Assembly (NCBI GenBank): GCA_021083345.1
Contig: JAJGRE010000007.1
Location: forward strand, 124,001-188,000
Origin: Calditrichales bacterium MX18-03
GTDB lineage: Bacteria > Bacillota > Clostridia > Lutisporales > Lutisporaceae
Direction of reading: 5' to 3'
DNA length: 64,000 bases
The notes under the pieces were generated by a model. That model was not told the DNA's origin, did no database searches, and saw nothing but the letters and a program-made list of their open reading frames with translations. The position numbers and the translations under genes are program-made. Of the stretch, positions 4,064 to 26,939 are shown piece by piece. Each line of letters begins with the position of its first letter. The first letter of the stretch is position 1.

Positions 4064-4102
4064 ATATTAACAGTATCATTGTGAATGCAATTGGAGGTAC
4101 AA

Positions 4103-5248
4103 ATGAACCAATCTTCCACACCAGCGCAACAGATTCAGGAAAAAGGGCGGATCAGCGCCCTTCAGCTTGCCCTGCTGAACGTTACCTTCATCATCGCAAC
4201 AGCTGATGTCTTCCTTCCTGCTTTTGTAGCAGAAGAGGCCCAGCAGGACTCTTGGCTGGCCGTCATTGTGGGTACCGCCACTTCCCTCGCCATCATAGCC
4301 GTTTTCTTGTCACTGGGCCTCCGATATCCGGAGAAGACAATCATCCAGTATGCCTGTGATATATTGGGCAAACCGCTGGGTAAGCTGGTAGGCTTTCTCT
4401 ATACGTTTTTTTTTCTGTTCCTGTCCTATGCCGTTACAGGCGAGCTGGGAGAAATATTTACCATATCCTTTAACCCTGCAGCACCCGTTTCCCTGTACAG
4501 CATCGCAATCATTACGGTTGCCGCTTATGCAGTCAAGAAAGGACTGGAGGTCATCACAAGGATCAACGAGGTATTGCTGCCTGTCGGCATGCTGGTTTTG
4601 TTCTTCATAGCCACCGTCAACCTACCGCACATGGATCTGAAATATTTCCGGCCTTTCCTGTACAACGGCATCCCGCCTGTTTTAAGGGGCGGTATTCTGA
4701 TACAGAGCTGGCTCATAGAGTCGGTATTTGTCCTCCAATTGATACCTTTTGTGAAGGAGCGGGAAAAAATCAGAAAGCATGTTGTGTTATCCATCGTCTT
4801 CTTAAGCTTGGGACTTCAGACCGGTGTCATGACGATTGCGGTGCTGGGCCCCCTTACAGGCAAGATGCTTTTTCCCGCGTTGGAGTATGTCCGCTATGCC
4901 AGCATTGGGGTCTATATCAATAATCTCGATATCAGCATCATGGTGGTATGGATATCCGGTATCTTTGTCAAGATCGCCCTGGCCTATTATCTTGCCGTAC
5001 TGGCTCTCGCCCAGCTTTTCGGCTTCCCCTCCTATAAAGAGCTGGTGGTGCCTGTCGGCTTATTGATTATTTCACTGTCTATCGTCGCATCCCAGTCCAT
5101 CGTAAAATTTGTACACGAATTGCATTATATTTTCCCTTTCTATTCCTTTTCCATGGCGTTTATCCTGCCTGCCATTCTTCTGCTGGTTTCCGTGATAAAG
5201 GATAAAATATCCGGCACATCAGGCAAGACTCAATCCGATCAATCTTAG
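4103..5248 (+). CDS. gerKB: Spore germination permease, GerB/GerKB family
   Basis: The integral membrane B subunit of a germinant receptor (PF03845, distantly related to amino acid permeases). It is 381 residues with about ten hydrophobic helices, close to the usual 360-375. The ATG at 4103 follows GGAGG; the upstream ATG at 4085 has no ribosome site. In forespores this subunit sits in the inner membrane with GerA and GerC. Its partner genes are unusually placed: gerKC and gerKA lie 3-7 kb away on the other strand. A CBO0543-like membrane gene follows 18 bases downstream in the same unit. Confidence 0.93.
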   Translation: MNQSSTPAQQIQEKGRISALQLALLNVTFIIATADVFLPAFVAEEAQQDSWLAVIVGTATSLAIIAVFLSLGLRYPEKTIIQYACDILGKPLGKLVGFLYTFFFLFLSYAVTGELGEIFTISFNPAAPVSLYSIAIITVAAYAVKKGLEVITRINEVLLPVGMLVLFFIATVNLPHMDLKYFRPFLYNGIPPVLRGGILIQSWLIESVFVLQLIPFVKEREKIRKHVVLSIVFLSLGLQTGVMTIAVLGPLTGKMLFPALEYVRYASIGVYINNLDISIMVVWISGIFVKIALAYYLAVLALAQLFGFPSYKELVVPVGLLIISLSIVASQSIVKFVHELHYIFPFYSFSMAFILPAILLLVSVIKDKISGTSGKTQSDQS

Positions 5249-5266: not shown

Positions 5267-5746
5267 ATGAAGTACTTTTTTTATTACGGTTCAATCGCTA
5301 TTGCCTGGCTCTTATTCCTATGGGCGGCCGGAAGAAAGAAACCGGGACTCCATGATATCTTGATCGGTATTGTTTCCGTGGCCTTTTCCCTGGCTTTTGA
5401 AATCTTGCTTGGCACATATGCACGCCTTTATTATTACATTGATCCGCCTTATGACATCCCGTACATGGTGGCTGCTTCCATTCTGCTCTATCCACTGCTC
5501 AATACCCTATACGTCCTCTTCCTGCCCAAAAAAACAAAGACAGCTCTGCTTTATACTGTCTTTTGGATTGCCGCCATGCTTGTTTTCGAATGGGCCAGCA
5601 TCTTGACCGGTACAGTGGTGCTTACCGGATGGAAAATGGTCCCTTATTCCTATCTGACTTATGTGCTGACCTACTCATGGATCTATCCGCTCTATCGCTA
5701 CTTGAACAGCAAGTACAAAATAGAAGAAGCAAAGGCTTACCGGTAA
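5267..5746 (+). CDS. Small polytopic membrane protein, CBO0543-like
   Basis: A 159-residue protein with about five hydrophobic helices and a charged C-terminal tail, start behind GGAGG. It resembles the group often labelled CBO0543 in clostridia, whose function is not known. It shares an operon with gerKB and converges with, and overlaps by ten bases, the flavoprotein gene at 5737-6810. Three further proteins of the same general build occur at 6914, 19017 and 19505. Family membership is judged from size, helix layout and aromatic/Trp content, not from a signature residue. Confidence 0.75.
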   Translation: MKYFFYYGSIAIAWLLFLWAAGRKKPGLHDILIGIVSVAFSLAFEILLGTYARLYYYIDPPYDIPYMVAASILLYPLLNTLYVLFLPKKTKTALLYTVFWIAAMLVFEWASILTGTVVLTGWKMVPYSYLTYVLTYSWIYPLYRYLNSKYKIEEAKAYR

Positions 5747-6810
5747 GGCGGCTTCAAAATCAGCTTGCTGAATAAGGCACCATATTTTGTTGCATTGATA
5801 TTGGTATTGTATATGATCGGTACAACACCCGGCATTCCCAGAGCCGTCACCAGCATATCATAGCCTGCATTGGTCATGGTGTTGAACAGCTTCCTGAACT
5901 GCCGCATCTCTATATTTCTGTCCATGATTTCCTTGATCTGCTTCTCGTAGTCTTTCCCCAACATAATGGACCGTGCTGTGCTGACTCCCATAACGGCCGC
6001 ATTGATGTGTCCGAAGCCCAGAAAGGGCTCCACACCACCGCCGGCGTTCCCTATAAAATACAGGTTCCCCAACCGGTGCGGATAGGCAAACCCGCTGGTA
6101 TGTGCCATTTTGAACTCTTCGACAATTGGATATCGAATATTCTCAGAATACAAAAAAAGCTCCCAATACCGGTCTACTTCCTTCTCGTTGACCTCCGTCG
6201 CAATCAAGATCAGTGACGCTTTCTTATTGTCAAAGGCAGTCAGGTAGGCATAGCCGTTCTTGGTATAATCCTTGTTCAGCCACACGATAAGCCGGGTGGG
6301 ATCGAAGCTGCCCAATACGACAGCCCCCCTGACATAGGTCTTGAGCCAGCTCTGCCAGATTCCCTGCTCTTCTGCTGCAGCTGAGGTACCGTTTGCTATG
6401 ACGACATAATCGTATTTTTGTGCAAGCCTCTCATAATCTCCGTACTCATTCAAGAAGAGCCTTGACTTCTTCAGCTTGTTATACATCTGTACTTTCAGGG
6501 AATCCGGATCCCTGGTGTATTTGAAGAAATAACCGAAGTGCCCGTAAAGCGTGGTGGTTTTATTGGGTGCGCGGTGTTCTAAGGAACGTACGACATTATA
6601 GGGTGTTATGTCGAGGGCAAGGTCTTTTCTAAAGTACTGAAGCATATCCTTGTGGGGACGGTGGGTGATATCCAGTATGGCCGTAATATGGCTGATGGCT
6701 TCTCCCACATAGCTTCTCATTTCATATATATCGGGCGCTGTGCCCAGCCGCTCCAGCTCATGAGCGCAGTATAACCCTGCCAGACCCGCCCCGATGATAG
6801 CAACCTTCAT
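5737..6810 (-). CDS. FAD-dependent oxidoreductase, geranylgeranyl-reductase type (copy 1)
   Basis: A 357-residue flavoprotein. The N-terminal dinucleotide motif GAGLAGLYCAHELER with the acidic residue of IYE binds FAD. The second FAD motif appears as GNAGGGVEPFLGFG, where geranylgeranyl-reductase and related flavoproteins usually have GDAAG. It lacks membrane helices. It is homologous to the protein at 17893 (shared WLNK..NGYAY and GFG..A patterns). The ATG at 6810 lies just after the stop of a 33-aa peptide that carries the GGAGG. Reduction of an isoprenoid chain is an inference from fold type and from the prenyl genes next to the paralog; other hydride-transfer roles are possible. Confidence 0.85.
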   Translation of the reverse strand: MKVAIIGAGLAGLYCAHELERLGTAPDIYEMRSYVGEAISHITAILDITHRPHKDMLQYFRKDLALDITPYNVVRSLEHRAPNKTTTLYGHFGYFFKYTRDPDSLKVQMYNKLKKSRLFLNEYGDYERLAQKYDYVVIANGTSAAAEEQGIWQSWLKTYVRGAVVLGSFDPTRLIVWLNKDYTKNGYAYLTAFDNKKASLILIATEVNEKEVDRYWELFLYSENIRYPIVEEFKMAHTSGFAYPHRLGNLYFIGNAGGGVEPFLGFGHINAAVMGVSTARSIMLGKDYEKQIKEIMDRNIEMRQFRKLFNTMTNAGYDMLVTALGMPGVVPIIYNTNINATKYGALFSKLILKPPYR

Positions 6811-6815: not shown

Positions 6816-6917
6816 TCAGCCTCCATATCTGTCAAGCATTTTAAACCAAAAATATACTAGTACACCGATTATTGAGGTTAATATCGTATAGGTTAGCAAG
6901 CTGATCTCAAATCTCAT
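6816..6917 (-). CDS. 33-residue single-helix membrane peptide
   Basis: A short gene between a CBO0543-like gene and the flavoprotein. Its ATG overlaps the upstream stop codon (ATGA), with AAGGGG about eight bases before it, and its stop lies five bases before the flavoprotein ATG. The peptide begins MRFEISLLTY, holds one hydrophobic helix of about 20 residues, and ends KMLDRYGG. The overlap, ribosome site and membrane-helix composition support a real gene. Function is unknown; it may anchor or regulate the soluble flavoprotein at the membrane (inference). Confidence 0.65.
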   Translation of the reverse strand: MRFEISLLTYTILTSIIGVLVYFWFKMLDRYGG

Positions 6918-7366
6918 TGCAATTGCCCCTTTTTATCGTCTAGCATCACCATGGTGAACCAGCTGAGGATGATCATAACGCCGAGGTTGACCTGCAAGCT
7001 GTCTATGTAATGCCAATTTGTATAGACAACATTCTGCCGGAGAACAAGAAGCAGTTCCTGCGCTGAGTATAGTGCTGCCAGTGCCAATACATTCAGTATA
7101 TTCATTCTTTTGCTCTTAGGATGGTATTGAACCAATAATATGCCTACCACAAGCACCGGCCCAAAAACAAAAAAGCCGGAAGAGCGAAAAAAGTAAAAGG
7201 CATTTTTGTGAATTTCATACAAGCCATGTGTCATTGCCTGAGTATCTACCAGAAACTGCAGTGCCACCGCTATTACGCCGCCCCAGACACTCCTTTTCAA
7301 TCTTTTCCAGTCAATCAACAAAAAAAAGAGAATCCAGCTCACAATAAAGAGAATCAGCCATTCCAT
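6914..7366 (-). CDS. Small polytopic membrane protein, CBO0543-like
   Basis: A 150-residue membrane protein with four or five hydrophobic helices. It starts MEWLILFIVSW behind AGGAGG and ends with a charged DDKKGQLQ tail. It has the same build as the proteins at 5267, 19017 and 19505. It lies within the minus-strand gerKA-led gene run, 21 bases after the 75-aa gene, and its stop overlaps the start of the 33-aa peptide. Function is unknown. Confidence 0.75.
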   Translation of the reverse strand: MEWLILFIVSWILFFLLIDWKRLKRSVWGGVIAVALQFLVDTQAMTHGLYEIHKNAFYFFRSSGFFVFGPVLVVGILLVQYHPKSKRMNILNVLALAALYSAQELLLVLRQNVVYTNWHYIDSLQVNLGVMIILSWFTMVMLDDKKGQLQ

Positions 7367-7387: not shown

Positions 7388-7615
7388 CTAATAATTGGGC
7401 TTCTTGGGAAATATTTTGCCGATGATCCCGGCAGCACCCTTATACCGTTCAACCTTTTGCTGCAGCATGACAATATCCCGCATATCGTCATCCCGGAGCT
7501 GTGTCAGGATTGATCTCACCTCCGGATTTCTGGCTACCATCATGTTTTGATTGTATGACAGCTGACTGGCGATCTTATATTGCAGAATATCCTTCAAAAT
7601 ATCCAGCTCTTCCAC
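7388..7615 (-). CDS. Short helical protein of unknown function (75 aa)
   Basis: A soluble, mostly helical 75-residue protein starting MEELDILKDILQYK from a GTG with GGAGG seven bases upstream. It has a long heptad-like segment and a basic C-terminus (IFPKKPNY). It may be a remnant or relative of ferritin-like coat proteins, since the neighbour at 7635 has the same size and opening residues. It lies in the minus-strand gene run between the germination genes and the flavoprotein. Confidence 0.7.
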   Translation of the reverse strand: MEELDILKDILQYKIASQLSYNQNMMVARNPEVRSILTQLRDDDMRDIVMLQQKVERYKGAAGIIGKIFPKKPNY

Positions 7616-7634: not shown

Positions 7635-7844
7635 CTAACCCTGTATCTTCAGCTTGATCATCTTGTCCTTCAGGATTTTGATGTGCTCCTCCGAGGTTTT
7701 CTTCATCTTCTTCAGCATATCCTTCAGTTCCTTGTTTTTCAGATCGGTATAGTAGTCCTCATATTTTTTTATCAGCAGTTCTTCTTTGTCTATGGCATTC
7801 CGAAAGACGATGCTGAGGATGTATTCCTGTAACAGCTCCTCCAT
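7635..7844 (-). CDS. Short coiled-coil protein of unknown function (69 aa)
   Basis: A 69-residue protein, MEELLQEYILSIVF at the start, then a Lys/Glu-rich helix (KKMKKTSEEHIKILKDK). The layout looks like half of a ferritin-like four-helix bundle, as seen in small spore proteins. The ATG at 7844 is chosen for the GGGGGA seven bases upstream; the frame is open to 7964. It and the 75-aa gene are 19 bases apart and may form a pair. Confidence 0.7.
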   Translation of the reverse strand: MEELLQEYILSIVFRNAIDKEELLIKKYEDYYTDLKNKELKDMLKKMKKTSEEHIKILKDKMIKLKIQG

Positions 7845-7953: not shown

Positions 7954-8184
7954 CTAATGGGCACTATTGGGAAAAACCCATTGAGAAGGTTTTTCGAAAA
8001 GCAGCTTCAGCAGCATGCCCGGCGTGGGCAATTCCAGGTCTAGCATAACATCATAGCTGTAAGCCAATGCAATGAGCATCAGAATCAGATATACGGCCAG
8101 CTCGGCTTTTTTCTTCTGCATCAGCATGCTTCTCCCCTGTATGATGCTGATGCCTACATAAATGACAGCTACAAGATAAACCAT
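7954..8184 (-). CDS. Small membrane protein downstream of gerKC (76 aa)
   Basis: A 76-residue protein with two hydrophobic helices (VYLVAVIYVGISII and ELAVYLILMLIALAY) separated by a basic loop with KKK, and a polar tail ending QWVFPNSAH. It lies 12 bases after gerKC with AGGAG before its ATG. Small two-helix proteins encoded with germinant receptors (the so-called D subunits of some gerA-type operons) modulate receptor activity; this is a plausible but unproven comparison. Confidence 0.75.
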   Translation of the reverse strand: MVYLVAVIYVGISIIQGRSMLMQKKKAELAVYLILMLIALAYSYDVMLDLELPTPGMLLKLLFEKPSQWVFPNSAH

Positions 8185-8196
8185 AGTCCAGCTCTC

Positions 8197-9402
8197 CTAG
8201 TTACTGACTTTGATACTGTTCTGTATGATCCCGATTCTGACCAGCTTTACCTGGACATCGTACTTGACCGGTATACCCGCATATAGCTCCGGCCATTCCT
8301 TCCCGATCTCCCGCCATGTGTCCGGTTCCTTCCGGTAGATGGCATCTCCAAAGCCGAAGATATCCGCCTTGTATTCCTTCTGCGCTTTTTTGACGGCAGC
8401 CTTCATCTCTTTCACGATACTCTGCGCAAATTCCTTTTCGGCCTTTTCGATGACCGCAGGGTCCATCAAATCGTCCATGCAGGAGTTCTCTACAACTCTC
8501 CCCCGGACACGCAGCTTGATCTCCATTGAGACGCCGTCTTCCGTTACCACCGGCCTGACATCGCTCTTGGCAGATGTGGTTTCCATTGCAAGGCTGCCTT
8601 TGCTGTCGCCTAAGTCCACCACAACAGCACCGATTTTTGCCTTATTGACGATCCACAGATAGCCCCGGGTTTCATAGTCGCTGAAAAAGCCCTTCAGTGA
8701 GCATTCATGGAATACGGCACTGCCGGATAGGAAAGACAATTCTTCCCCCTCCCCCCGGCCTTCGTGCTGCGTCGTTCTCTCCCGATAGGTGGAGAAGGTC
8801 CTGCCGCTGGCCTTCTCAATACCGATATGGCCTGCAACACTTCCGGTATCCTGTTCGGTAAAGGTCTTGGCAAAATCCAGCAAAGTCGGAACATAGGCCT
8901 TGGACCATTCATCCATGTTGCTGATCAGGCCCTTCATTTCCGAGTATAAGTTATTTTCAATGTCGGCGGGCGCCTCCATGACATCCTTGGCCGGTCCGGA
9001 GCTGACCAATACATGATTTCTCAACCGGAGCTCCCTGTTGCGGATAAAAAAATCCAATATTTCCGTCAAGCCTGCCCGGGCTGCTTCTTCCCCAATGATG
9101 ACAATATCGTTCTGAACCCAGGTCAGTTTCTTGGATGCATATTTCCTAAGATTCTTCGATGCCTCCATGGGGCTTTTCCCTGTTGCGCTGCCGATCCAGG
9201 TACTGGACTTTTCTCCCTGCTGCATCATGCCGCCAACCGGATAAACAGCCATGACGGTGATCTGGTATTTTCCGTCCTCATTCAGGTCAATACCGGTAAC
9301 CACCACGATCCCCAGTTCTCCCAGTTCGTTATAGCCGTAGCAGCCGCCAAAGCACATCGCTGTACATCCAAGCAAAAGCAGTAATGTGATTGTCTTCTTC
9401 AT
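8197..9402 (-). CDS. gerKC: Spore germination lipoprotein, Ger(x)C / GerKC family
   Basis: A 401-residue C subunit of a germinant receptor. The signal peptide ends in a lipobox (CFGGCYG), giving a lipid-anchored protein on the outer face of the forespore inner membrane. The body carries the usual family patterns (GIDLNEDGKYQITV, SSTWIGSATGKSPMEA, RHH-type loop around NRELRLRNHVLVSSG). The ATG at 9402 is one base after the gerKA stop, so the two are translationally coupled. Upstream in-frame codons are rejected because they would displace the signal peptide. Confidence 0.93.
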   Translation of the reverse strand: MKKTITLLLLLGCTAMCFGGCYGYNELGELGIVVVTGIDLNEDGKYQITVMAVYPVGGMMQQGEKSSTWIGSATGKSPMEASKNLRKYASKKLTWVQNDIVIIGEEAARAGLTEILDFFIRNRELRLRNHVLVSSGPAKDVMEAPADIENNLYSEMKGLISNMDEWSKAYVPTLLDFAKTFTEQDTGSVAGHIGIEKASGRTFSTYRERTTQHEGRGEGEELSFLSGSAVFHECSLKGFFSDYETRGYLWIVNKAKIGAVVVDLGDSKGSLAMETTSAKSDVRPVVTEDGVSMEIKLRVRGRVVENSCMDDLMDPAVIEKAEKEFAQSIVKEMKAAVKKAQKEYKADIFGFGDAIYRKEPDTWREIGKEWPELYAGIPVKYDVQVKLVRIGIIQNSIKVSN

Positions 9403-9403
9403 T

Positions 9404-11059
9404 TCAATCACCCGCCTGCCCGCTGTTTTGTTCCGGATCCGACTGCTCTGCACGGTTTTTCCATATCCTTATATTATCTTGGATATACGTCGGCCTTTTC
9501 TTCAGATATTTCGCCGGCAGCATGATGATGCTGTCCTTCAAGCCCTGGGTATCGGACGGCGTGAAGGGGGATAGATAAGGTACACCGAAGGACCTCAGGG
9601 CTGCCATATGGATCAGTAGAATCAGGATGCCCGTAATGATCCCGAATATCCCCATGGTGGCGGCAAGTAACATGAAGGGGAACCTCAGTACACTGGCCTG
9701 CCGTTTGGTATTCAGCTTGGGTATCATGAAGGATGCCAATCCTGTAATGGATACGACTACCACCATCATGGGGGAAATGAGGCCTGCCTGGACGGATATC
9801 TGTCCGATAACCAAGGCACCAACGATACTCAATGCGTTGCTGATCCTTGCAGGCATCCGGATACCGGACTCCCGGACAATCTCAAAGATGACTTCCATCA
9901 GGACCGCTTCGACAAAAGCCGGGAACGGTACATCCGCCCGGGCATTCAGGATGGATATCAACAGATTCGTGGGGATCATCTCCGGATGATAGGTGGTAAT
10001 GGCAATATAGGCAGAGGGGCCTAGAAGCGAAATGAAAAAGGCAAAATACCGCAGCATCCGGATAAAACCGGTAAAGTAGCCCCTATCATAATAATCCTCC
10101 GCTGCCGTGAAAAGGAAAGAGAAAGTGGTCGGTGCAATCATGACAAAAGGGTTCCCGTCTATCAAGATGGCAAATCGTCCCTCGGATAGCGCTGCCGCAC
10201 AGGAATCAGGCCTTTCCGTAATCTCTGACTGGGGAAAGGGAGAAAGCGGATCATCTTCAACGAAAGAGATCAGTTCACCTACTGCAAGCGCAATGTCGAT
10301 ATCCATTTTTTGCAAGCGTTTCCTCGCTTCATCAACAATACCCGTTTCAATGATCCCTTCAATATAGGCCAAAATGACCTTCGTCTTGCCTTGGCTTCCG
10401 ATCTCAAAGGCTTCCATCTTAAGCGCATGCGTCTTGATCCGCCTCCGGACCAGAGTCAGATTGACACCGATGTCTTCGACAAAAGCCTCCTGCGGTCCCC
10501 GCACAACCGATTCGATCTTGGCTTCCGAAACGCTCCGCGTCTCCATGGCTTTGACATCCACTGCATAGGCAGTGGCATATCCATTCACTAGTAATAAGCA
10601 CTGGGCCTCCAATATGCTTTTCAATGCATCCTTCAGCATAGTGACTTCCTTGTACTGACTGACAGCCAATATTTCATCCTTGACCCACGCCGGGGGCCCG
10701 GCACAGGTTTCCGTCGTTGTCTCCCGGGGTTTCTGATAGGCCATCAGCCGTTCTATGATGTCATGGTTGAGCATTTCCTTGTTGGTCATGCCATCAAAAA
10801 ACACAATGCTGCAAAGACGGCCGTTTGCCATGGAAAAACGGCGGAACTGGATATCGCTGCAGCCTTTGAATGCTGCCTCCAGGGCTTTAAGATTCACATC
10901 CATATCGATAGACAGAGCCCCATCTTCATAGGGCTTGTATCCATCCTGCTGAATTCTGTCCACCCGATCCTGCAGCCGGTTTTTCTGCGGCCTGCTTCCC
11001 AAATTTTTCATATTCTGCAGCTTAACAGGCTGCTTTCCCGTCATCTTGTAACGCTTCAT
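9404..11059 (-). CDS. gerKA: Spore germination protein, GerA/GerKA family
   Basis: The A subunit of a germinant receptor (PF03323), 551 residues. A large soluble N-terminal domain (about 1-300) carries the typical VEGIIETGIVDEARKRL-like stretch and the LIDGNPFVMIAPTTF segment. A membrane domain of about five helices and a polar C-terminal tail follow. It heads a minus-strand run: gerKA, gerKC, 76 aa, 69 aa, 75 aa, CBO0543-like, 33 aa, flavoprotein. The B subunit is not in this run but on the opposite strand at 4103. GGAAG lies about eleven bases before the ATG. Confidence 0.95.
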   Translation of the reverse strand: MKRYKMTGKQPVKLQNMKNLGSRPQKNRLQDRVDRIQQDGYKPYEDGALSIDMDVNLKALEAAFKGCSDIQFRRFSMANGRLCSIVFFDGMTNKEMLNHDIIERLMAYQKPRETTTETCAGPPAWVKDEILAVSQYKEVTMLKDALKSILEAQCLLLVNGYATAYAVDVKAMETRSVSEAKIESVVRGPQEAFVEDIGVNLTLVRRRIKTHALKMEAFEIGSQGKTKVILAYIEGIIETGIVDEARKRLQKMDIDIALAVGELISFVEDDPLSPFPQSEITERPDSCAAALSEGRFAILIDGNPFVMIAPTTFSFLFTAAEDYYDRGYFTGFIRMLRYFAFFISLLGPSAYIAITTYHPEMIPTNLLISILNARADVPFPAFVEAVLMEVIFEIVRESGIRMPARISNALSIVGALVIGQISVQAGLISPMMVVVVSITGLASFMIPKLNTKRQASVLRFPFMLLAATMGIFGIITGILILLIHMAALRSFGVPYLSPFTPSDTQGLKDSIIMLPAKYLKKRPTYIQDNIRIWKNRAEQSDPEQNSGQAGD

Positions 11060-14193: not shown

Positions 14194-15483
14194 ATGTTCT
14201 GTAACCAATGTGAACAAACACCCAATGGGGGCTGTACCAAAATAGGGGTATGCGGTAAAAACGAGGATATCACCGCTTTGCAGGATACCATGATCTTTGG
14301 CCTGAAGGGTGTAGCCGCTTATGCCACCCATGCAAGGGAGCTGGGCTTTATTGACCCCGAGGTGGACGGCATCGCCCATGAAGCGCTCTATATGACCCTG
14401 ACCAATTCCAACTTTAACTTAGAAGAACATATTGCCATGGCCCTCAAGGTGGGTACCGCTACCGTCAAGGTCATGGACCTGCTGGACCGTGCCCATACCG
14501 CCAAGCTGGGCGTTCCGCAGCCTGTCACCGTATCCCAGGACAAGGTGGAAGGCCGCTCCATACTGGTAACCGGCCACAACCTTTTTGCTCTGCTGGAGCT
14601 TTTGAAGCAGACAGAAGGCAAGGGCATCAACATATACACCCATTCTGAGATGCTTCCTGCCCACGGTTATCCCGAGCTGAAGAAATACGCTCACCTGAAA
14701 GGCAATGTAGGAAAAGCCTGGTATGACCAGAGAAAGCTCTTTGAAGCTTTCCCGGGCGCCATCCTGGGTACCACCAACTGTCTCATGCCCATCAAGGGAA
14801 GTTATGCCGACAGGTTCTTCACCTACGGCACAGCCGGACTTGAAGGTGCTGCAAAGATTGTAAATGACGACTTCACACCGATTATAGAAAAAGCCCTGTC
14901 CTTACCGGCAGCCAATATCGACTCCGACAAGACCTTGACAACCGGCTTCCATCACAATACCGTGCTGGGCATCGCACCGGAGATCATAGATGCCGTCAAG
15001 GGCGGCAAGATCAGAAGGTTCTTTGTCATCGCAGGCTGCGACGCACCTACAAAAGGCAGGGACTATTACCGGGAGCTGGCACTTTCACTGCCCAAGGACT
15101 GCGTGCTGCTGACAACCTCCTGCGGCAAGTTCCGGTTCAATGACCATGATTTCGGCGTCATTGAGGGAACCGGCATTCCGAGATACATCGACCTGGGTCA
15201 GTGCAACAATTCCGGTTCTGCCGTCAACATCGCCGTTGCGCTGGCAGAAGCCTTCAACTGCACGGTCAACGACCTGCCGCTGTCCATCGTGCTCTCCTGG
15301 TTCGAACAGAAGGCCGTGGCCATCCTTCTGGGCTTGTTCTCACTGGGTGTCAAGGATATCCGCGTAGGTCCTTCCGCACCGGCATGGTTTACCTCCAACG
15401 TTGTGGGCGTACTGCAGCAAGCCTTCAACTTACAGCTCATCGGCGATCCTCAGGAAGACCTGAAGAAGATGCTGGGCGAATAA
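14194..15483 (+). CDS. hcp: Hydroxylamine reductase / hybrid cluster protein, short form
   Basis: Reduces hydroxylamine and, in better-studied homologs, nitric oxide; soluble and cytosolic in anaerobes. The N-terminal iron-sulfur cluster cysteines are C3, C6, C14 and C20 (MFCNQCEQTPNGGC..GVCG). Hybrid-cluster ligand regions are visible as GHNLF, TTNCLMP, AGCDAPTKGRDYY, TTSCGKFRFND and GQCNNSG. At 429 residues it is about 110 shorter than the E. coli type, and the deletion follows the cysteine motif, as in the class found in Thermotoga and methanogens. GAGGAGG precedes the ATG. The upstream HcpR-like site points to induction by nitrosative stress. Confidence 0.95.
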   Translation: MFCNQCEQTPNGGCTKIGVCGKNEDITALQDTMIFGLKGVAAYATHARELGFIDPEVDGIAHEALYMTLTNSNFNLEEHIAMALKVGTATVKVMDLLDRAHTAKLGVPQPVTVSQDKVEGRSILVTGHNLFALLELLKQTEGKGINIYTHSEMLPAHGYPELKKYAHLKGNVGKAWYDQRKLFEAFPGAILGTTNCLMPIKGSYADRFFTYGTAGLEGAAKIVNDDFTPIIEKALSLPAANIDSDKTLTTGFHHNTVLGIAPEIIDAVKGGKIRRFFVIAGCDAPTKGRDYYRELALSLPKDCVLLTTSCGKFRFNDHDFGVIEGTGIPRYIDLGQCNNSGSAVNIAVALAEAFNCTVNDLPLSIVLSWFEQKAVAILLGLFSLGVKDIRVGPSAPAWFTSNVVGVLQQAFNLQLIGDPQEDLKKMLGE

Positions 15484-15627: not shown

Positions 15628-16632
15628 TTGACAACACAGCTTGGGAAACATGAACCGCTGCCGCAGGGCAAACACTTCGACATCACGGGATTTGCAGAAT
15701 TTGAGGCCATAGAATCTGCACTTCACCATGCCATTGCTGACAGTGAGGGCATCGTGCGGGATATGTGCCTGCATATACTCAATGCAGGCGGCAAGAGGAT
15801 TCGGCCGCTGCTTGTCCTTTACAGCGGAAATCTTTTTTCTGACGGGAATAAGGCAGAACTCTTGCAAACAGCTGTTGCAGCAGAATTGATCCACATGGCT
15901 TCCCTGGTGCATGACGACATTATAGATGGTTCTCCCTACCGGAGAAACAAGCCCTCGGTAAACAAGGTGTGGGGAAACCATTTTGCCGTCCTCTGCGGCG
16001 ACTACTTGTTTGCAAAGGCCTTCGGGCTGCTCTCGGATCCAGGGGCTGCAGCCGGCATGAGCTATATGGTGGAAGCGATACAGGGCATGTGTTATGGTGA
16101 AATACTGCAAGCCTCCGACAAATACGTCACCAGTATAAGTCTGGAGGCTTATTACAACAAAATTGCCAAGAAAACAGCTCTTTTCATTGCCCGCTGCTGC
16201 AAAGCCGGCGCTGTGGTTGCAGGAGCAGATGGGGCTCAGACCGATCTGGCCGGCCAATACGGCATGAACCTGGGTTACGCCTTTCAGATAACCGATGATG
16301 TGCTGGACTTCTGTGGAGATGCAGCCGCAATGGGAAAGCCGGCAGGTGAAGACCTGATGCAGGGCATCCTGACGCTGCCTGTCATCCTGCTGCTGCGTCA
16401 CGATGCCTATGGTCCCTGGATCAGGCAGATGATACAGAACAGGGCTTTTTCCGATGAGAACATCCACCGGGTCAAGCTGATCCTGGAGGAAACCGGCAGC
16501 ATAAAAAAATCCTATGAGATAGCTGAGTATCATATGGAAAGAGCAAAGGCAGCCCTCAGGCTGCTGCCGCAGTCCCGGTATACCGACATGCTGTCCGGGT
16601 TGGCAGACATGCTTCAGACCAGGGTAAACTAA
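15628..16632 (+). CDS. Long-chain polyprenyl diphosphate synthase
   Basis: Condenses isopentenyl diphosphate onto an allylic primer to give a trans-polyprenyl diphosphate. 334 residues. It has GGKRIRP (54-60), the first aspartate-rich motif DDIID (96-100) and the second DDVLD (223-227). The residue five before the first motif is Ala91, the small side chain found in synthases making chains longer than C20, so a C30-C40 product is likely. In heterodimeric heptaprenyl synthases a second small subunit is needed; none is seen here. It starts at TTG with GGAAGGA upstream. It converges with the DUF2600 terpene synthase 26 bases away, its probable user. Confidence 0.92.
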   Translation: MTTQLGKHEPLPQGKHFDITGFAEFEAIESALHHAIADSEGIVRDMCLHILNAGGKRIRPLLVLYSGNLFSDGNKAELLQTAVAAELIHMASLVHDDIIDGSPYRRNKPSVNKVWGNHFAVLCGDYLFAKAFGLLSDPGAAAGMSYMVEAIQGMCYGEILQASDKYVTSISLEAYYNKIAKKTALFIARCCKAGAVVAGADGAQTDLAGQYGMNLGYAFQITDDVLDFCGDAAAMGKPAGEDLMQGILTLPVILLLRHDAYGPWIRQMIQNRAFSDENIHRVKLILEETGSIKKSYEIAEYHMERAKAALRLLPQSRYTDMLSGLADMLQTRVN

Positions 16633-16657
16633 AGTCATTCTGACATCAGGAAGAATC

Positions 16658-17719
16658 TCATAGTTTCCCCTTATACCGCAGCAGCCTGCATATCCTGGCA
16701 TATAAGACCGCTGCTGCCCCGCCTTTTCTGATCAGCTTCCGTGTAACCGGCTTGTTCTTTACGGAAATGGCTTTCGGATCGGTAAGGTACATAGCCAGAA
16801 CGCCTTTCACCACCGTCAGGTGGAAGCCCGGGTGCTTCAGCGCCATGCTGCCGGCAACCGACCTGTCGATGAAGTAGGACAGCCTCTGGCAGCAGAATGC
16901 CGGATCCTTGTAGTAATGCGTGAAGTTCAGATCACCTGACGCAATATCTTCCTCCGAGTCGATAAAGTAGTCCAGCAGGATATGCAGTCCTGCGATCCAC
17001 GGAAAATAAGCCGAATGCAGCCGAAGGATTTCCACTTCCTCTAGTTGGGGATTATGTGCTGCAGCGAACAGTACGAATACCCCTAGTGTTGAACCTGCAG
17101 CTGCAGAGAACTCCCAACGGTAAATGTGCGGATAATCCTTCAGTTCCCGCTCTGCCCAAGCCCACAATTTCTCTTCGCGCCGGTCCTTGCCCAGATGCTT
17201 AAGCGCTTGTAAATCGGTGTATAACGCCACCAGTTGAAGGATTTTGTCTTTTACAAGGGGATAAGAAGGTGCTCCTGCTATCGCAGCACGGCACTCCTCC
17301 ACCAGCGCTTTCAGATAGCCGTTATCGGCTTTATAGGGATAATAGGCATAATAATCTGCTACAGCGACTGACGGGTCGACGGCGTCCCGCATAGACAGGT
17401 GCAGCTGTCTGAACGCTTGTTCATCCTCCACCCCTGCCCGGTCACACAAATTATCCAAATAGTCGCTGATCGTCTGTAATGCAGTGATAAACCTGATCAT
17501 ATTGACCCTATCCGCCCCAGGGTAAAGGGCATAGACACTTCCGCCCAGCGCATGGAACCTCTTATCCCTGATGCTGGCCAAGGCCTGCTGCGCCAACATC
17601 TCATCCTCAGCCTGACGTGCCCGTCCTGAATACTCCTCCAGCTTCATGTCTACCATGGGCCAGACATCCTCAACAAATTCCTTAATAAGCCTAAGCCCTC
17701 TTTTGCTACTCGTTTTCAA
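16658..17719 (-). CDS. DUF2600 (YtpB-type) terpene synthase, tetraprenyl-beta-curcumene synthase-like
   Basis: A 353-residue all-helical protein of the DUF2600 family (PF10776). Its Bacillus member YtpB converts a C35 prenyl diphosphate to tetraprenyl-beta-curcumene, a precursor of sesquarterpenes. Aspartate-rich motifs stand at DYLDNLCDR (86-94) and DYFIDSEED (250-258), where magnesium and diphosphate would bind. Length and motif spacing match the family. It starts at TTG with GGTGA a few bases upstream; there is no good ATG before MVDMK at residue 22. It lies between the prenyl synthase and the flavoprotein paralog, diverging from the latter. The product here is an inference. Confidence 0.85.
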   Translation of the reverse strand: MKTSSKRGLRLIKEFVEDVWPMVDMKLEEYSGRARQAEDEMLAQQALASIRDKRFHALGGSVYALYPGADRVNMIRFITALQTISDYLDNLCDRAGVEDEQAFRQLHLSMRDAVDPSVAVADYYAYYPYKADNGYLKALVEECRAAIAGAPSYPLVKDKILQLVALYTDLQALKHLGKDRREEKLWAWAERELKDYPHIYRWEFSAAAGSTLGVFVLFAAAHNPQLEEVEILRLHSAYFPWIAGLHILLDYFIDSEEDIASGDLNFTHYYKDPAFCCQRLSYFIDRSVAGSMALKHPGFHLTVVKGVLAMYLTDPKAISVKNKPVTRKLIRKGGAAAVLYARICRLLRYKGKL

Positions 17720-17892
17720 TACTTCACCAACCTTTGATACTTTCTATGTCACTCGACGAAGGAAGCGTCTCAGACCCCGGAGACAGCCCTTTGATATAGC
17801 TTGAACTTTTTTTCGTTTTTTAGTCGTTCATGTTTATTGACCAATTTGGAAAGAATATAGAATGTCATCGTATTTGGAAACGAGGTAGTCAT

Positions 17893-18993
17893 ATGAAGGT
17901 AGCCATCATCGGTGCAGGACTTTCCGGGTTGGCCTGCGCCATCGAATTGGAGCGCCATGGAATCAGACCGGATATTTTCGAGGAAACAAAAATGCTGGGG
18001 GATAAGCCGGGAGCCTTGGTTGCCAGCCTCAGGCTCTTTACCGACTCTATCAGAAGTCCTATGAGTTATATGAAAAGCGCCTATGGCATCAGCCTGACGC
18101 CTTTGCACCCTATCAAGCAAATGGTGATGCACGCACCTCTAAAGTCCGTATCGACCAAAGGTAATCACGGCTATGTCTTTAAGAAAGGTATTGAAGCGGA
18201 TTCAGTGGAGCATCAGCTTGCAGCCCATATGAACGTACCGATCAAATTCAATACCCATATCAATCTGCGGGATATCAGGAATGAGTATGAACACATCGTC
18301 GTGGCGACAGGGATCAATACCATAGCAAAAGAGCTGGGGCTCTGGATGACCAACTTTCAAGCTCAATGCCGCCTCGCAACTATCTTTGGAGAGTTTGGCA
18401 ATAATGCTATGCATATGTGGCTGAACAAGTCCTTCGCAAGGAACGGTTATGCTTATATCCTTACCAAGAATCCAAGTGAAGCAGAACTTGTTCTCGTTGT
18501 ATCCGATATAGACCAAACCAGGCTGGACTACTTCTGGAATGAGTTCCTGATCAGAGAAAAACCCGGCTTCCATATTGGCAAATGCAACGATATTGAGCAT
18601 ATCATCGGCTACCCTTTGACAAATCGGTACGAAAATTGCTATTTTGTCGGGAATTGCGGCGGTATGATCGATGATTTTCTGGGATTTGGGTCGTTCCGTG
18701 CAATGGAAAGCGGCATTATGGCTGCCCGTGCTATCGCCTTGAAGCAGGATTTTAATAAGCTCCTGAAGCCATATAAAAAAGAGGTGCTGAGACTGCATGA
18801 GTACCGCAAGATGGTAGATCTCCTGAACAACAAAGATCTGGATATCGATATGTCCATTTTAGGATTACCGGTGTTGAAGCATATGATCTATAATAATCCT
18901 TTGTATAAAGCCAGGTATGGCATATGGGCGCCAAAAGGGATGCAGCTTCTGAAGAAATGGAAATACCCCTTTGATGTCAATCGAAGAGATTAA
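17893..18993 (+). CDS. FAD-dependent oxidoreductase, geranylgeranyl-reductase type (copy 2)
   Basis: A 366-residue flavoprotein, paralog of the one at 5737. It begins MKVAIIGAGLSGLACAIELER, with an acidic residue after the second strand (IFEE); the second FAD segment is GNCGGMIDDFLGFGS. Shared internal patterns include WLNKSFARNGYAY and a C-terminal tail rich in basic residues. The ATG at 17893 follows GAGG; the frame extends to 17830 without a ribosome site. It is followed after 23 bases by a CBO0543-like gene and diverges from the terpene synthase. Reduction or oxidation of the terpenoid product is a plausible role but not shown. Confidence 0.85.
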   Translation: MKVAIIGAGLSGLACAIELERHGIRPDIFEETKMLGDKPGALVASLRLFTDSIRSPMSYMKSAYGISLTPLHPIKQMVMHAPLKSVSTKGNHGYVFKKGIEADSVEHQLAAHMNVPIKFNTHINLRDIRNEYEHIVVATGINTIAKELGLWMTNFQAQCRLATIFGEFGNNAMHMWLNKSFARNGYAYILTKNPSEAELVLVVSDIDQTRLDYFWNEFLIREKPGFHIGKCNDIEHIIGYPLTNRYENCYFVGNCGGMIDDFLGFGSFRAMESGIMAARAIALKQDFNKLLKPYKKEVLRLHEYRKMVDLLNNKDLDIDMSILGLPVLKHMIYNNPLYKARYGIWAPKGMQLLKKWKYPFDVNRRD

Positions 18994-19016
18994 TCTGAAA
19001 TATTAAAGGTGACGAT

Positions 19017-19490
19017 ATGAGTAAGGAAGTATTAATTCTTATTCTAGCATGGACTATAACAACCACAATGCTGATTCTGTATGTCCCAAGGAATAAAGCT
19101 AGAGAAGCCTGGGTTATTTTCCTGTTCAAGCAGTTTATGACTTGGCTGCTGGGTCTTATCGTCGTCCAATACGGGCTGATCGAATATCCCGTCAGGTCCT
19201 TCAGTAATGCAACCAAAACAAGCTTTGACTTCGAATACTTTATCTACCCTTCGCTCTGTGTTGTTTTTAACTTGCATTATCCGGAAGGAAAAAGCCGCAC
19301 AAGGCAATTCCTACACTATTTTTACTTCTGCTCAGTCATGACAGCTATAGAAGTGCTATGCGAAAGGTATACAAATACCATAGAGTACATTCATTGGGAC
19401 TGGTATTTGACTTGGATTACCCTTTTTGCGACATTCTATGCCTCAAGGCATTATTATCTCTGGTTTTTTAAAATAAAGCCAAAGAGCTAA
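19017..19490 (+). CDS. Small polytopic membrane protein, CBO0543-like
   Basis: A 157-residue membrane protein with four or five helices (first helix VLILILAWTITTTMLILYV), several Trp and Tyr residues near helix ends, and a basic tail. It lies 23 bases after flavoprotein copy 2, with AAAGGTG before its ATG, repeating the flavoprotein/CBO0543 pairing seen at 5.7-7.4 kb. Function is unknown. Confidence 0.75.
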   Translation: MSKEVLILILAWTITTTMLILYVPRNKAREAWVIFLFKQFMTWLLGLIVVQYGLIEYPVRSFSNATKTSFDFEYFIYPSLCVVFNLHYPEGKSRTRQFLHYFYFCSVMTAIEVLCERYTNTIEYIHWDWYLTWITLFATFYASRHYYLWFFKIKPKS

Positions 19491-19504
19491 GGAGAAAAAA
19501 CCTT

Positions 19505-20008
19505 CTACCGCATCGTACCTATGGGTAATTTCAAGATATACAACGCCACGGTAATCAATGCGGCTGATATTGGCCATGCCAATAAAGGCTTCTGATAGTG
19601 AAGCCTTATCATGACAAACATCATAACGTCAAAGCCTGACGACCACCATAAGTTCCAACCGTTTTGAGCCAAAAACAATCCCTGCCATGTACATAAAGCC
19701 TCCAGTAAAATATATAAGCCTGCCCAAAGCAATATGTGGAATGCTTGCCTGATGGGCTTTCGGGGATAATGCGACAGGAATAAGATTACTGTGCTTGGAA
19801 ATACAGTGAAAGCAATAAAAATATCACTGAGGGTATGGTTGACTATTTTATAGTTGAATTCCCACAAGGGATAATGCGCAGTCAGAAAATTGGTCAGGAA
19901 ATCAACCAGAATCACGTAAAGAATCGTGGGATAGTACACCTTCCAATTTTTCCAATCCCCCCATTTCCAGCAGCAAAAGATAAAAAAGGGTGCCGATAAT
20001 GCAATCAT
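19505..20008 (-). CDS. Small polytopic membrane protein, CBO0543-like
   Basis: A 167-residue membrane protein with about five hydrophobic helices and many aromatic residues (FFIFCCWKWGDWKNW near the start). It starts at the ATG at 20008 behind AAGGAG; the frame upstream is shadow of the DUF3231 gene. It is convergent with the CBO0543-like gene at 19017, with 14 bases between stops, and follows the DUF3231 pair in the same direction with an 11-base gap, so it may be cotranscribed with them. Confidence 0.75.
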   Translation of the reverse strand: MIALSAPFFIFCCWKWGDWKNWKVYYPTILYVILVDFLTNFLTAHYPLWEFNYKIVNHTLSDIFIAFTVFPSTVILFLSHYPRKPIRQAFHILLWAGLYILLEALCTWQGLFLAQNGWNLWWSSGFDVMMFVMIRLHYQKPLLAWPISAALITVALYILKLPIGTMR

Positions 20009-20019
20009 ACCATTTCTCC

Positions 20020-21030
20020 TTATGAGTTGATGAGCTGGTTGCGGTCCTCCATCTGCGGCGGCTCCTCCAGCCATTTGTGCTTGATCATCAGCTTGCCGCC
20101 TTCCCTGGCATACTGCAGATTGTCCTTTGCAACAGCGCCCATTTTAACTACAAGGTCGCTCCTCATGCTGTACGACATGCCGAATCCGCTGCTGCCCATC
20201 GAATAGTTTGATAATGTATTCGTCAGAAACATCATCAATTTATCTGAAAAGGCGGGTAAGATAGAGTCGGTGGCTTTGCCTGCCCATGTAGTCGGGGGTT
20301 GGATATCGCTCTGCAAAAGAATGTTGCTGAAGTCGCTTATGGTTTGTTTGGCAAGCTCTTTTCCTTTGACAAAGTAATCCCTCACTTCACTCTCTTTGGC
20401 AGTCTGCGCAAAGCCTGTCATTAATTGCATTCCCAATACGTTTGACTCAATCAACTGGAAAATGTATGATACTTCCAGGGCATTCAGAGCCCGCTTCTTT
20501 CCCATCAGTTGTATACCGCTCATGTATTCTTTATCCTCGATGAATTCTACCGCTTTCGGCATGCTGACGTAGGGTGGCCTGACCAGGACGCCTTGCTCCG
20601 TAAGATAGTCAGTGCATGCATTGTATGTGTTTTTGGATACTGGTATTGTATTTGCAAAAAAATCCTGGATATCCTTCCTGTATGACATACCAATATGTAC
20701 GGCATTAAACCCCAAGGTTATCTTTGATATTGTACGTAGAAACATGATATGGAAAATGTCATCAAACAGGCCCGGCGCATCGTTGAAGACATCCCTGCCG
20801 TCAAAGGCAATGGGGACAACCGCTTTTTCATTTTCGAATGTTCTTTTAATCTCCGCAACAAGTGCTTCTTTGTCCTTGGCATAATTGTTCAATATGTCTT
20901 TCGCCTTTTGGTCCGTGGTTTTCTGGGCAAATGATCCGATTATCGTAGTGAACAATGATTTTGTCAAGTAAGACAGCCATAATATGCCTATTTCACCGGA
21001 TGTTATCTTGGTTTCAGTTATGTTGGTCAT
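20020..21030 (-). CDS. DUF3231 family protein (copy 2 of a tandem pair)
   Basis: A 336-residue, helical protein of the DUF3231 family (PF11553), which in spore formers consists of two ferritin-like four-helix units and is of unknown function. It starts MTNITETKITSGEIGILW; repeated features include the doubled YVSMP-type and GMS(Y)SMRSDL segments in each half. The ATG at 21030 follows GGAGG. It lies 23 bases after the other copy, with about two-thirds identical residues by eye and an almost identical last 25 residues. A spore-coat or spore-membrane role is inferred from the neighbourhood. Confidence 0.88.
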   Translation of the reverse strand: MTNITETKITSGEIGILWLSYLTKSLFTTIIGSFAQKTTDQKAKDILNNYAKDKEALVAEIKRTFENEKAVVPIAFDGRDVFNDAPGLFDDIFHIMFLRTISKITLGFNAVHIGMSYRKDIQDFFANTIPVSKNTYNACTDYLTEQGVLVRPPYVSMPKAVEFIEDKEYMSGIQLMGKKRALNALEVSYIFQLIESNVLGMQLMTGFAQTAKESEVRDYFVKGKELAKQTISDFSNILLQSDIQPPTTWAGKATDSILPAFSDKLMMFLTNTLSNYSMGSSGFGMSYSMRSDLVVKMGAVAKDNLQYAREGGKLMIKHKWLEEPPQMEDRNQLINS

Positions 21031-21053
21031 TTTTATCCTCCATGCGGGATTTT

Positions 21054-22064
21054 TTATGAATTGATTAAATGGTTGCGGTCTTCCATCTGAGGAGGCTCTT
21101 CCAACCACTTATGCTTGATCATCAGCTTGCCGCCTTCTCTGGCATAGTCCAAGGTATCCTTGGCAATAACAGAAAGCTTTATAGGCAAGTCGCTCCGCAT
21201 GCTGAAAGCCATACCTAATGCATTACCGGCCATAGCATAGCTGGATAATATATTAGAAAGAAACATCATCATTTTATCCGAAAAAGGCGGCACCACTGTG
21301 TCTGTTGCTTTGCCTGCCCAAGTAGCAGGCGGTTGGATATCACTCTGCAAGATAACATCGCTTAAGTCACTTACAATTTTCTTTGCCAGCTCTTTGCCTT
21401 TGAGAAAATAATCCCTTACTTCTTTCTCCTTGGCAACCTGGGCAAAGCCTGTCGTTAGCTGCATTCCCATAATATTCGATTCAATAATGAAGAAAATATA
21501 GGATATTTCAAGGGTATTCAAGGTACGCTTGTTTCCAAGGAGCTGTATCCCGCTCATGTATTTTTTCGCCTCAATGAATTCTACTTCTTTCGGCATACTG
21601 ACATAGGGCGGACGTGCCAAGACACCCTGCTCTGTAAGATAATCCGTGCAAATATTGAATGTGTCTTGAGAAAGCCTCAATGCCTTTCCGAAGAAATCCC
21701 TTATATCCTTTCTATAGGACATACTCAAATGTACGGAGTTAAACCCTAATTTTGTCTTTGACAGGATCCGAAGAAACATAACGTGGAAAACATCATCAAA
21801 CAAGCTGGGAGCGTCATCAAAAACGTCCCTACTGTCAAATGCCGTTGGAACAACAGCCTTTTCATTTTCAAATATCCTTTTTATCTCCGCTATGAGTTTT
21901 TCATTCTCAGAGACATAATGCGTTAATATGTCTTTTGCCTTTTGATCCGTCGCTTTCCGGGCGAATAGCCCTAACATTTGCGCAAGCAGTGTTTTTGCCT
22001 GATAGGACATCCACAGTATGCCAATTTCCCCGGATGTTATCTTGGTTTCTGTTAAATTAGCCAT
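21054..22064 (-). CDS. DUF3231 family protein (copy 1 of a tandem pair)
   Basis: A 336-residue paralog of the preceding entry, the same length to the residue. It starts MANLTETKITSGEIGILW behind GGAGAGG at 22064. The C-terminal stretch GGKLMIKHKWLEEPPQMEDR is shared exactly between copies, suggesting either strong selection or recent gene conversion. It is the first gene of the run DUF3231, DUF3231, CBO0543-like and begins 78 bases after the terminator of the V-ATPase operon. Confidence 0.88.
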   Translation of the reverse strand: MANLTETKITSGEIGILWMSYQAKTLLAQMLGLFARKATDQKAKDILTHYVSENEKLIAEIKRIFENEKAVVPTAFDSRDVFDDAPSLFDDVFHVMFLRILSKTKLGFNSVHLSMSYRKDIRDFFGKALRLSQDTFNICTDYLTEQGVLARPPYVSMPKEVEFIEAKKYMSGIQLLGNKRTLNTLEISYIFFIIESNIMGMQLTTGFAQVAKEKEVRDYFLKGKELAKKIVSDLSDVILQSDIQPPATWAGKATDTVVPPFSDKMMMFLSNILSSYAMAGNALGMAFSMRSDLPIKLSVIAKDTLDYAREGGKLMIKHKWLEEPPQMEDRNHLINS

Positions 22065-22141: not shown

Positions 22142-22177
22142 AAAAAAAAGACCGCGGCAGCACTTAAGCTTCCGCGG
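22142..22177 (-). terminator. Terminator of the V-ATPase operon, overlapping the last stop codon
   Basis: On the minus strand CCGCGGAAGC pairs with GCTGCCGCGG (one mismatch) and is followed by eight T residues. The TAA of subunit D (22166-22164) lies in the loop. Confidence 0.85.
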
Positions 22178-22796
22178 CTCTTCTTTCACCTTTCTTTTTT
22201 ACCACCTTCAACCGGAAGAAATCCTCCCGTTCCTTTTCCTCCAGCACCTCCGATATAGCCCTTACGATCTCCTTATACTTGGGAATCTGTATGTTCTGCA
22301 GGGCATTTGCCCTTTTCTGCGTCCTTTTGACCTCCATGGCCAGCTTGTATACCGAATCCTCCACCTCCGAAAGCTCGTAAAGCAGCTTCTTGACCTCCAG
22401 AAATTTCTGCAGCGCCACGTCCATGGCGGTGTTGGTGTTAAAAAAGCTGTAGTAATGAGAAAGCTGCTCTTCCTGATATTTGATCTCAGGAATCTCCACC
22501 CCCATGATGCTTTTTGTCACCACCTCCACACCGGATGCAATGGGTATGGACTGTGCAATCTGCTCCACATTGCTGATGCCCATGGTGATGTTGGCAGTCC
22601 GCAGCGCTTCATATGCGTCCTGAAAAACCACGGCCACCTTCTTTTGAATCTCCTCCGCCCGATCAATGAAGCCCATCATGGTCATGATGAGCACATTCCT
22701 TTTTTTGTCCAAGAGCTCAAAACCCTTCTGAGCAAGCTCCAGGGAGCTCTGGGCGGACATGAGGCTGGTTTTGGTAAACGTAATGTTCTGCTGCAT
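22164..22796 (-). CDS. ntpD: V-type ATP synthase subunit D
   Basis: The central rotor shaft of the V/A-type ATPase. 210 residues, long N- and C-terminal helices forming a coiled coil (KTSLMSAQSSLELAQKGFELLDKKRNVL at the start) with a short globular middle, the normal layout and length for the family. Last gene of the nine-gene operon, 20 bases after subunit B. Confidence 0.95.
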   Translation of the reverse strand: MQQNITFTKTSLMSAQSSLELAQKGFELLDKKRNVLIMTMMGFIDRAEEIQKKVAVVFQDAYEALRTANITMGISNVEQIAQSIPIASGVEVVTKSIMGVEIPEIKYQEEQLSHYYSFFNTNTAMDVALQKFLEVKKLLYELSEVEDSVYKLAMEVKRTQKRANALQNIQIPKYKEIVRAISEVLEEKEREDFFRLKVVKKKGERRAAEA

Positions 22797-22816
22797 GATA
22801 CGACCTCGTCATCCTA

Positions 22817-25964: not shown

Positions 25965-26596
25965 TATCCTGTCACCTCTTCAAGACGGCTGGAAAGTGCT
26001 GTGCCCACGGCTTCCCGGCTGTCTTCAATCAACGTTCTCAGCGTATAATCCACTTGCACGCTTCTTTCGCCGTCTTCTCCGTAGAATCCGCCGATGATGC
26101 CTGACGGGGCTTCCAGCAGCTCATACCCGACCGCTTGCCGCACCCCTTCGATGGTGCTCCGGATCATGTCGCCGTAGGTGCTTCTGTCCGCATCCGTCAG
26201 GTAGAAGCGGACCGTCTCGGCATGCTGCAGCTCCCGGCAGGCCTTCGCTATCTTTTCACAGAGATAGTCGGCATACCTGCCGCTTCCGGCAAAGGCCTCC
26301 GCCTCCTGCCGGATCAGCGCCACCATGGCCTCCAGCAGCGCCTGCTTCTTCTCCAGCAGCCGGTGGGTCTGCCTTGCATGCACCTTGGAAAGCAGCTGCC
26401 TGCTTTCCTTTTCCGCCTTTTTTTCCGCTTCGGTCAGGAGCCGATTGCCCTTGGCTTCCGCTTCCGCCCGCAGCCGGTCCTTTTCCAGCTCGATCCGCTC
26501 CAGAAGCTTTTCCTTCTCTTCTGCAGAATGGTTCTCTATATCACTAAAGATCATTTTCCTGAAAAGTTCGATCTTATCCTCTATGGATACCGCCAT
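25964..26596 (-). CDS. ntpE: V-type ATP synthase subunit E
   Basis: Peripheral stator stalk subunit. 210 residues: an N-terminal charged helix (about 1-110, rich in Glu, Lys and Arg) and a compact C-terminal domain ending in SRLEEVTG. Length fits the family. Sequence identity among E subunits is low; the assignment rests on layout and position between subunits F and A. Confidence 0.85.
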   Translation of the reverse strand: MAVSIEDKIELFRKMIFSDIENHSAEEKEKLLERIELEKDRLRAEAEAKGNRLLTEAEKKAEKESRQLLSKVHARQTHRLLEKKQALLEAMVALIRQEAEAFAGSGRYADYLCEKIAKACRELQHAETVRFYLTDADRSTYGDMIRSTIEGVRQAVGYELLEAPSGIIGGFYGEDGERSVQVDYTLRTLIEDSREAVGTALSSRLEEVTG

Positions 26597-26618
26597 TTGC
26601 CCACCACCTTCACACTAC

Positions 26619-26927: not shown

Positions 26928-26939
26928 ACGCCGCTCCTT

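Follow-up and report, generated by a model that had tools for sequence, protein, structure and literature searches.

Germinant receptors of the GerA type comprise the products of gerA, gerB and gerC together with a small D subunit, and how these receptors convert the binding of a nutrient into germination is not well understood, least of all outside Bacillus. A second spore-linked system is the sporulene pathway of Bacillus, which combines the class IB large terpene synthase YtpB/BalTS with the heptaprenyl diphosphate synthase HepS-HepT (PMC7839719, PMC11708026) and which also includes the cyclase SqhC. Genes related to both systems lie in a stretch of 64,000 nucleotides (hereafter the window) from Calditrichales bacterium MX18-03 (Bacillota; Clostridia; Lutisporaceae in GTDB), corresponding to positions 124,001 to 188,000 of the forward strand of contig JAJGRE010000007.1 (GCA_021083345.1). 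The block at 15628-22064 of this window had been proposed, from its letters alone, to be a single spore terpenoid locus. The comparisons reported here indicate that it probably consists of two spore-linked units that are independent and adjacent by coincidence: a terpene unit (unit 1), and a germination-linked unit (unit 2) for which a receptor-tuning role is proposed. The genes of the block are as follows.

15628..16632, + strand: polyprenyl diphosphate synthase, HepT-like, with a predicted product of C30 or longer (unit 1; PF00348, 2.6e-66)
16658..17719, - strand: DUF2600 class IB large terpene synthase of the YtpB/BalTS type (unit 1; PF10776, 1.6e-125)
17893..18993, + strand: FAD (flavin adenine dinucleotide)-dependent oxidoreductase of the flavo1 clade (unit 2; best named family TIGR02032 GG-red-SF, 3.8e-9)
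19017..19490, + strand: CBO0543-family small membrane protein, cboA (unit 2; NF041644, 7.2e-40)
19505..20008, - strand: CBO0543-family small membrane protein, cboB (unit 2; NF041644, 2.6e-18)
20020..21030, - strand: DUF3231 protein 1 (PF11553, 2.8e-73), placed in unit 2 by adjacency in this window only
21054..22064, - strand: DUF3231 protein 2 (PF11553, 7.3e-75)

All the genes that the original prediction named in the block are found with the motifs given for them, and their families are borne out by the profile matches. The two DUF3231 proteins are 71% identical, and the flavoprotein gene starts with the ATG at 17893.

In unit 1, the prenyl synthase and DUF2600 genes are arranged tail-to-tail with a gap of 25 bp. 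The DUF2600 protein matches PF10776 at full length (1-328 of 328, 418.8 bits against a cut-off of 25) as well as PDB entry 5yo8, a tetraprenyl-beta-curcumene synthase (1.5e-70). It carries both Asp-rich motifs as defined for class IB terpene synthases (PMC7839719), namely DYLDNLCD, followed by Arg as had been noted, and DYFIDSEED. The motifs reported for the prenyl synthase, DDIID and DDVLD, are likewise present, and the small residue described in front of them is an Ala five residues before the first DDxxD, a long-chain signature found in every one of the 42 prenyl synthases from the sampled loci. The best equivalog for this protein is GerC3_HepT, although the TIGR02748 cut-off is missed (264 bits against 456.55). 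The whole genome (G000; 4.69 Mb in 15 contigs) encodes one DUF2600 protein and three polyprenyl synthases.

The association of these two genes is a genuine conserved two-gene unit. A DUF2600 gene is found in 147 of the 398 genomes of a Bacillota-wide sample that includes this genome. Neighbourhoods of up to 20 kb were taken from 60 loci, mostly one per family, and from two further loci, and the 57 loci in which the gene caller recovered the DUF2600 gene were counted. A polyprenyl synthase lies within 500 bp of the DUF2600 gene in 36 of them. Where the two genes are immediate neighbours (35 pairs), the arrangement is tail-to-tail in 29 cases and same-strand in 6, the spacing seen most often being an overlap of the gene ends by 4 bp. 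This tail-to-tail overlap is kept across many families (L220, L222, L225, L228, L236 and others), which is unusual for a two-step pathway. Nearly all DUF2600 genomes also have the spore-germination marker GerA: it is present in 144 of the 147, versus 200 of the 251 genomes lacking DUF2600 (p 1.5e-8).

Unit 1 resembles the Bacillus sporulene pathway in its synthase family, in its Asp-rich motifs (DYLDNLxD and DY-IDxxED), in the HepT-type long-chain prenyl synthase and in its spore-forming hosts. It differs in that the prenyl synthase gene is tail-to-tail with the synthase gene and in that neither a HepS partner (PF07307) nor a squalene-hopene or SqhC-type cyclase (PF13249) was found anywhere in the genome; the local absence of such a cyclase, already pointed out, thus extends to the whole genome. 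The lack of these two proteins leads us to expect that the prenyl synthase is homomeric and that the end product is monocyclic. An end at the monocycle is plausible because the hydrophobicity studied in spore-surface mutants of B. subtilis is due to tetraprenyl-curcumene itself, more than to sporulene (PMC11708026). In the proposed scheme, the prenyl synthase would make an all-trans polyprenyl diphosphate of long chain (at least C30, most likely C35), of which the DUF2600 class IB synthase would ionise and cyclise one end. The resulting curcumene-type hydrocarbon would stay monocyclic, as does some of the tetraprenyl-curcumene on the spores of B. subtilis. Unit 1 should make a C30-C35 spore terpene, and as a variant of the known YtpB pathway it is widespread. 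The tail-to-tail pair, found phylum-wide, suggests that curcumene-type terpenes are common in spore-formers well beyond Bacillus.

Were the whole block one pathway, this C30-C35 terpene would be reduced by the neighbouring flavoprotein, with the CBO0543 and DUF3231 proteins as carriers or envelope partners. The genes are adjacent in this genome, the top structural matches of the flavoprotein are geranylgeranyl reductases, the genome is without a cyclase to finish the product, and sigma-G-like promoters are enriched for both families (see below), all of which would fit. Comparison with other genomes nevertheless makes such a pathway improbable. The flavoprotein family, delimited by alignments A1 and A2, occurs in 49 of the 398 genomes (this one included), and 83 of its loci were collected from relatives, named genomes and the phylum sample. 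Within 8 kb, the radius used for all neighbourhood counts of ger, CBO0543, DUF2600, prenyl synthase and flavoprotein genes unless a shorter one is given, none of these 83 loci has a DUF2600 or prenyl synthase gene. Conversely, none of the 57 DUF2600 loci, the window aside, has a flavoprotein or CBO0543 gene. At the genome level, with this genome left out, the two families occur together as expected by chance (both in 19 genomes, flavoprotein only in 29, DUF2600 only in 127, neither in 222; p 0.75), and DUF2600 is absent from 29 of the 48 other flavoprotein genomes. Because these neighbourhood and co-occurrence tests separate the DUF2600 pair from the flavoprotein/CBO0543 set, a single pathway is rejected. 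A continuation of the terpene pathway by the flavoprotein, CBO0543 and DUF3231 genes is not supported, as these genes fail the test of a conserved neighbourhood that the original prediction had itself set.

The second unit, which spans 17893-20008 and may extend through the DUF3231 pair to 22064, is more readily interpreted as a copy of a putative germination-linked module. The conserved partners of the flavoprotein are CBO0543 proteins, small helical proteins and germinant-receptor genes. A second flavoprotein copy, which the original prediction had not connected with the block, lies among such genes in a cluster at 4085-11059 of the same window, carried by both strands:

4085..5248, + strand: gerB-type germinant receptor subunit, homologous to gerB of L040 and other loci
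5267..5746, + strand: CBO0543-like membrane protein, cboC (NF041644, 4.1e-5, under the cut-off; same position in L040 and L058)
5737..6810, - strand: second flavoprotein, flavo2 clade, 60% identical to the L040 flavo2
6914..7366, - strand: CBO0543-like membrane protein, cboD (NF041644, 4.6e-7, under the cut-off; same position in L040, L056 and L058)
7388..7615, - strand: small helical protein of 75 amino acids (aa), a recurrent family of the flavoprotein module
7635..7844, - strand: small helical protein of about 70 aa, fused to the 75-aa protein in some loci
7954..8184, - strand: membrane protein of 76 aa with two hydrophobic segments, a probable small (D-type) germinant receptor subunit
8197..9453, - strand: gerC-type germinant receptor subunit, matching gerC of L040, L043, L056 and L058
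9404..11059, - strand: gerA-type germinant receptor subunit (PF03323, 3.6e-171, at G000:C13:133488; GerXA, 4.8e-102)

With gerA, gerB and gerC together, the window contains a complete GerA-type receptor locus; the genome has four GerA genes. The 76-aa protein agrees in position and size with L040:10374-10598 and L058:11077-11313, and a strong sigma-G-like site (GTATA-N17-CATACTA) lies about 50 bp upstream of gerB. The cluster resembles described GerA-type receptors in its three subunits, in the probable D subunit and in this promoter-like site before gerB. Unlike them, its genes are interleaved with the two CBO0543-like proteins, the flavoprotein and the two small helical proteins, on both strands. 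In the fullest form of the cluster (L040, L043, L056 and L058, with small variations), the order is gerB, CBO0543, flavo2 (reverse), CBO0543, 75-aa protein, 70-aa protein, flavo1 (forward), small membrane protein, gerC and gerA, and the cluster at 4085-11059 corresponds to this form minus flavo1. CotF-like spore coat genes are found just before the ger cluster (1776-2429; one clear Coat_F match and one sub-threshold), and L040 has similar genes at the same place.

The linkage between the flavoprotein and ger genes is strong but not universal. When the 83 loci are merged at a flavoprotein identity of at least 80%, 72 independent clusters result, of which 21 have a ger gene nearby, compared with an expectation of about 2.8% derived from the measured GerA numbers (p 4e-16). 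DUF2600 loci, used as a control, have one in 2 cases out of 57 (p 8e-5). In 17 of the 72 clusters the ger gene is within 1 kb, and CBO0543 genes are found near 16. GerA is present in all 48 other flavoprotein genomes of the phylum sample. Of the neighbour families left unassigned, that of the 75-aa and 70-aa helical proteins is the most frequent, with 30 members in 21 flavoprotein loci. In L061, L062, L178-L180 and L186 the two are fused into one protein of about 155 aa, beside flavoproteins in tandem pairs. In L205, L209 and L210, tandem flavoprotein pairs of another clade stand directly beside ger genes, and CBO0543 genes were not detected in these loci.

Phylogenetic analysis places both window copies in clades linked to ger and CBO0543 genes: the copy at 5737-6810 in the flavo2 clade (10 rows; Shimodaira-Hasegawa-like approximate likelihood ratio test, SH-aLRT, 100) and the copy at 17893-18993 in the flavo1 clade (13 rows; SH-aLRT 97). 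The flavoproteins and their neighbours could also be paralogous passengers with no common function, their linkage to ger genes reflecting the ancestry of a few clades. This genome does have six flavoprotein copies, and for two of these no ger or CBO0543 gene lies in the vicinity. Such an origin is unlikely, however, since the tree shows the ger-linked members dispersed and requires at least 19 changes of state, so that the association either recurs or has been lost repeatedly.

As to structure, the AlphaFold model of the flavoprotein (mean predicted local distance difference test, pLDDT, 92.6) has as its top PDB match the geranylgeranyl reductase (GGR)-like 3oz2 (E 1e-18, template modelling score 0.72), and the GGRs 3oz2, 4opl and 3atq are its best matches overall. 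The designation "geranylgeranyl-reductase-type" given originally therefore holds for the fold, but the protein reaches 36.6 bits against TIGR02032 and not the cut-off of 158.8. The family shares with GGRs the N-terminal GxGxxG and the following Glu. It differs from them in low identity (15-17%), shorter length and linkage to ger and CBO0543 genes. With the GGR-like fold, a lipid substrate is possible for this protein.

In the one paper that a search for CBO0543 (family NF041644) brought up, the name serves as a locus tag (PMC3038992). Against the 35-bit cut-off of this family, two window proteins pass, 19017-19490 with 135.8 bits and 19505-20008 with 66.3 bits, whereas those at 5267-5746 (23.7 bits) and 6914-7366 (30.0 bits) stay under it. 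A Glu in the fourth long helix is the most conserved residue of the family (29 of 31 sequences), and a Trp is kept in 26 of 31. The model of the 19017-19490 protein (pLDDT 88.6) shows five main helices in a bundle. A known membrane enzyme fold was considered for it, including a lycopene-cyclase-like one, and Foldseek against the PDB gave no match (best E 3.5). The small helical proteins were considered as relatives of DUF3231; the hmmscan matches are sub-threshold and lack profile-profile support, which leaves the DUF3231 genes without a firm place in unit 2.

Promoter signals were compared by scoring sites against a sigma-G model, with shuffling and altered spacing as controls, since an exact pattern proved too strict (2 of 23 for the gerB control). 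Relative to the other genes of the same loci, the area under the curve (AUC) of the sigma-G-like score is 0.79 for gerA, the positive control, 0.74 for paired prenyl synthases, 0.67 for flavoproteins and 0.64 for DUF2600 genes. With a wrong spacer the effect nearly disappears (AUC 0.45-0.57), and sigma-A sites are not enriched upstream of the gerA, prenyl synthase, flavoprotein or DUF2600 genes. The sigma-factor matrices come from general knowledge and related sequences are not independent, so this enrichment is a population-level hint.

Several observations weigh against the proposed reading of the two units. About 70% of the flavoprotein loci (51 of the 72 clusters) are without a ger gene nearby. 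The flavo1 embedded in the ger cluster of L040, from the related genome G009, is 54% identical to another copy of the MX18-03 genome (C8:220570) and 44% identical to the window copy; the latter is accordingly a member of the clade rather than a proven positional orthologue, and it may be a diverged paralogue. That flavo1 had simply moved out of the window's ger cluster was considered and discarded, as no remnant is found at the expected place and the other copy is closer to the ger-embedded relative. A conserved GD motif for FAD is usual in flavoproteins of the GGR-type fold. In this family it is GN in 57 of 89 sequences and GD in 2, which makes FAD binding and catalysis less than certain. Finally, the window's own sigma-G-like sites upstream of the prenyl synthase, DUF2600 and flavo1 genes are weak, the site at gerB being the strong one.

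The clusters without ger genes would also suit a general lipid-modifying set of the forespore or spore membrane, for example for the reduction of prenyl lipids or quinones. Flavoprotein and CBO0543 proteins would then have no effect on germination, and their proximity to ger genes would come from the clustering of forespore genes. The GGR-like fold agrees with this, as does the sigma-G-like enrichment in genes other than ger. It is a possibility that we nonetheless regard as doubtful: in several lineages the flavoproteins are flanked by gerB and by gerC/gerA in a fixed order, and a ger gene within 1 kb in so many clusters is tighter than loose co-location.

If unit 2 is indeed germination-linked, the GGR-fold FAD protein would act with the CBO0543 membrane proteins and, in the full form, with the two small helical proteins, beside gerA, gerB and gerC products, in the inner membrane of the forespore or spore. 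It may carry out the reduction or oxidation of a quinone or membrane lipid that the CBO0543 proteins hold, and this step could tune the germinant receptor. Our best guess is such a role in lipid or quinone redox chemistry, exerted next to the receptor in the inner membrane of the spore. More speculatively, paired GGR-fold flavoproteins, CBO0543 proteins and helical proteins might form a new kind of accessory of the germinant receptor, coupling the redox or lipid state of the spore's inner membrane to activation of the receptor, an idea to be held tentatively. If true, germinant receptors in many Clostridia and other Bacillota would have a new partner, a module of flavoprotein and membrane proteins whose genes are interleaved with their own. 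Nothing relevant to a ger-linked flavoprotein, CBO0543 or DUF3231 appeared among the papers searched, and the flavoprotein/CBO0543 module is apparently undescribed.

The block is bordered by other genes on both sides. A hydroxylamine reductase (hybrid cluster protein) gene at 14194-15483 adjoins the prenyl synthase gene; its match begins well inside the family model, so that its N-terminus must be either short or diverged. On the other side, a V-type ATPase operon (22164-27359) follows the DUF3231 genes directly downstream.

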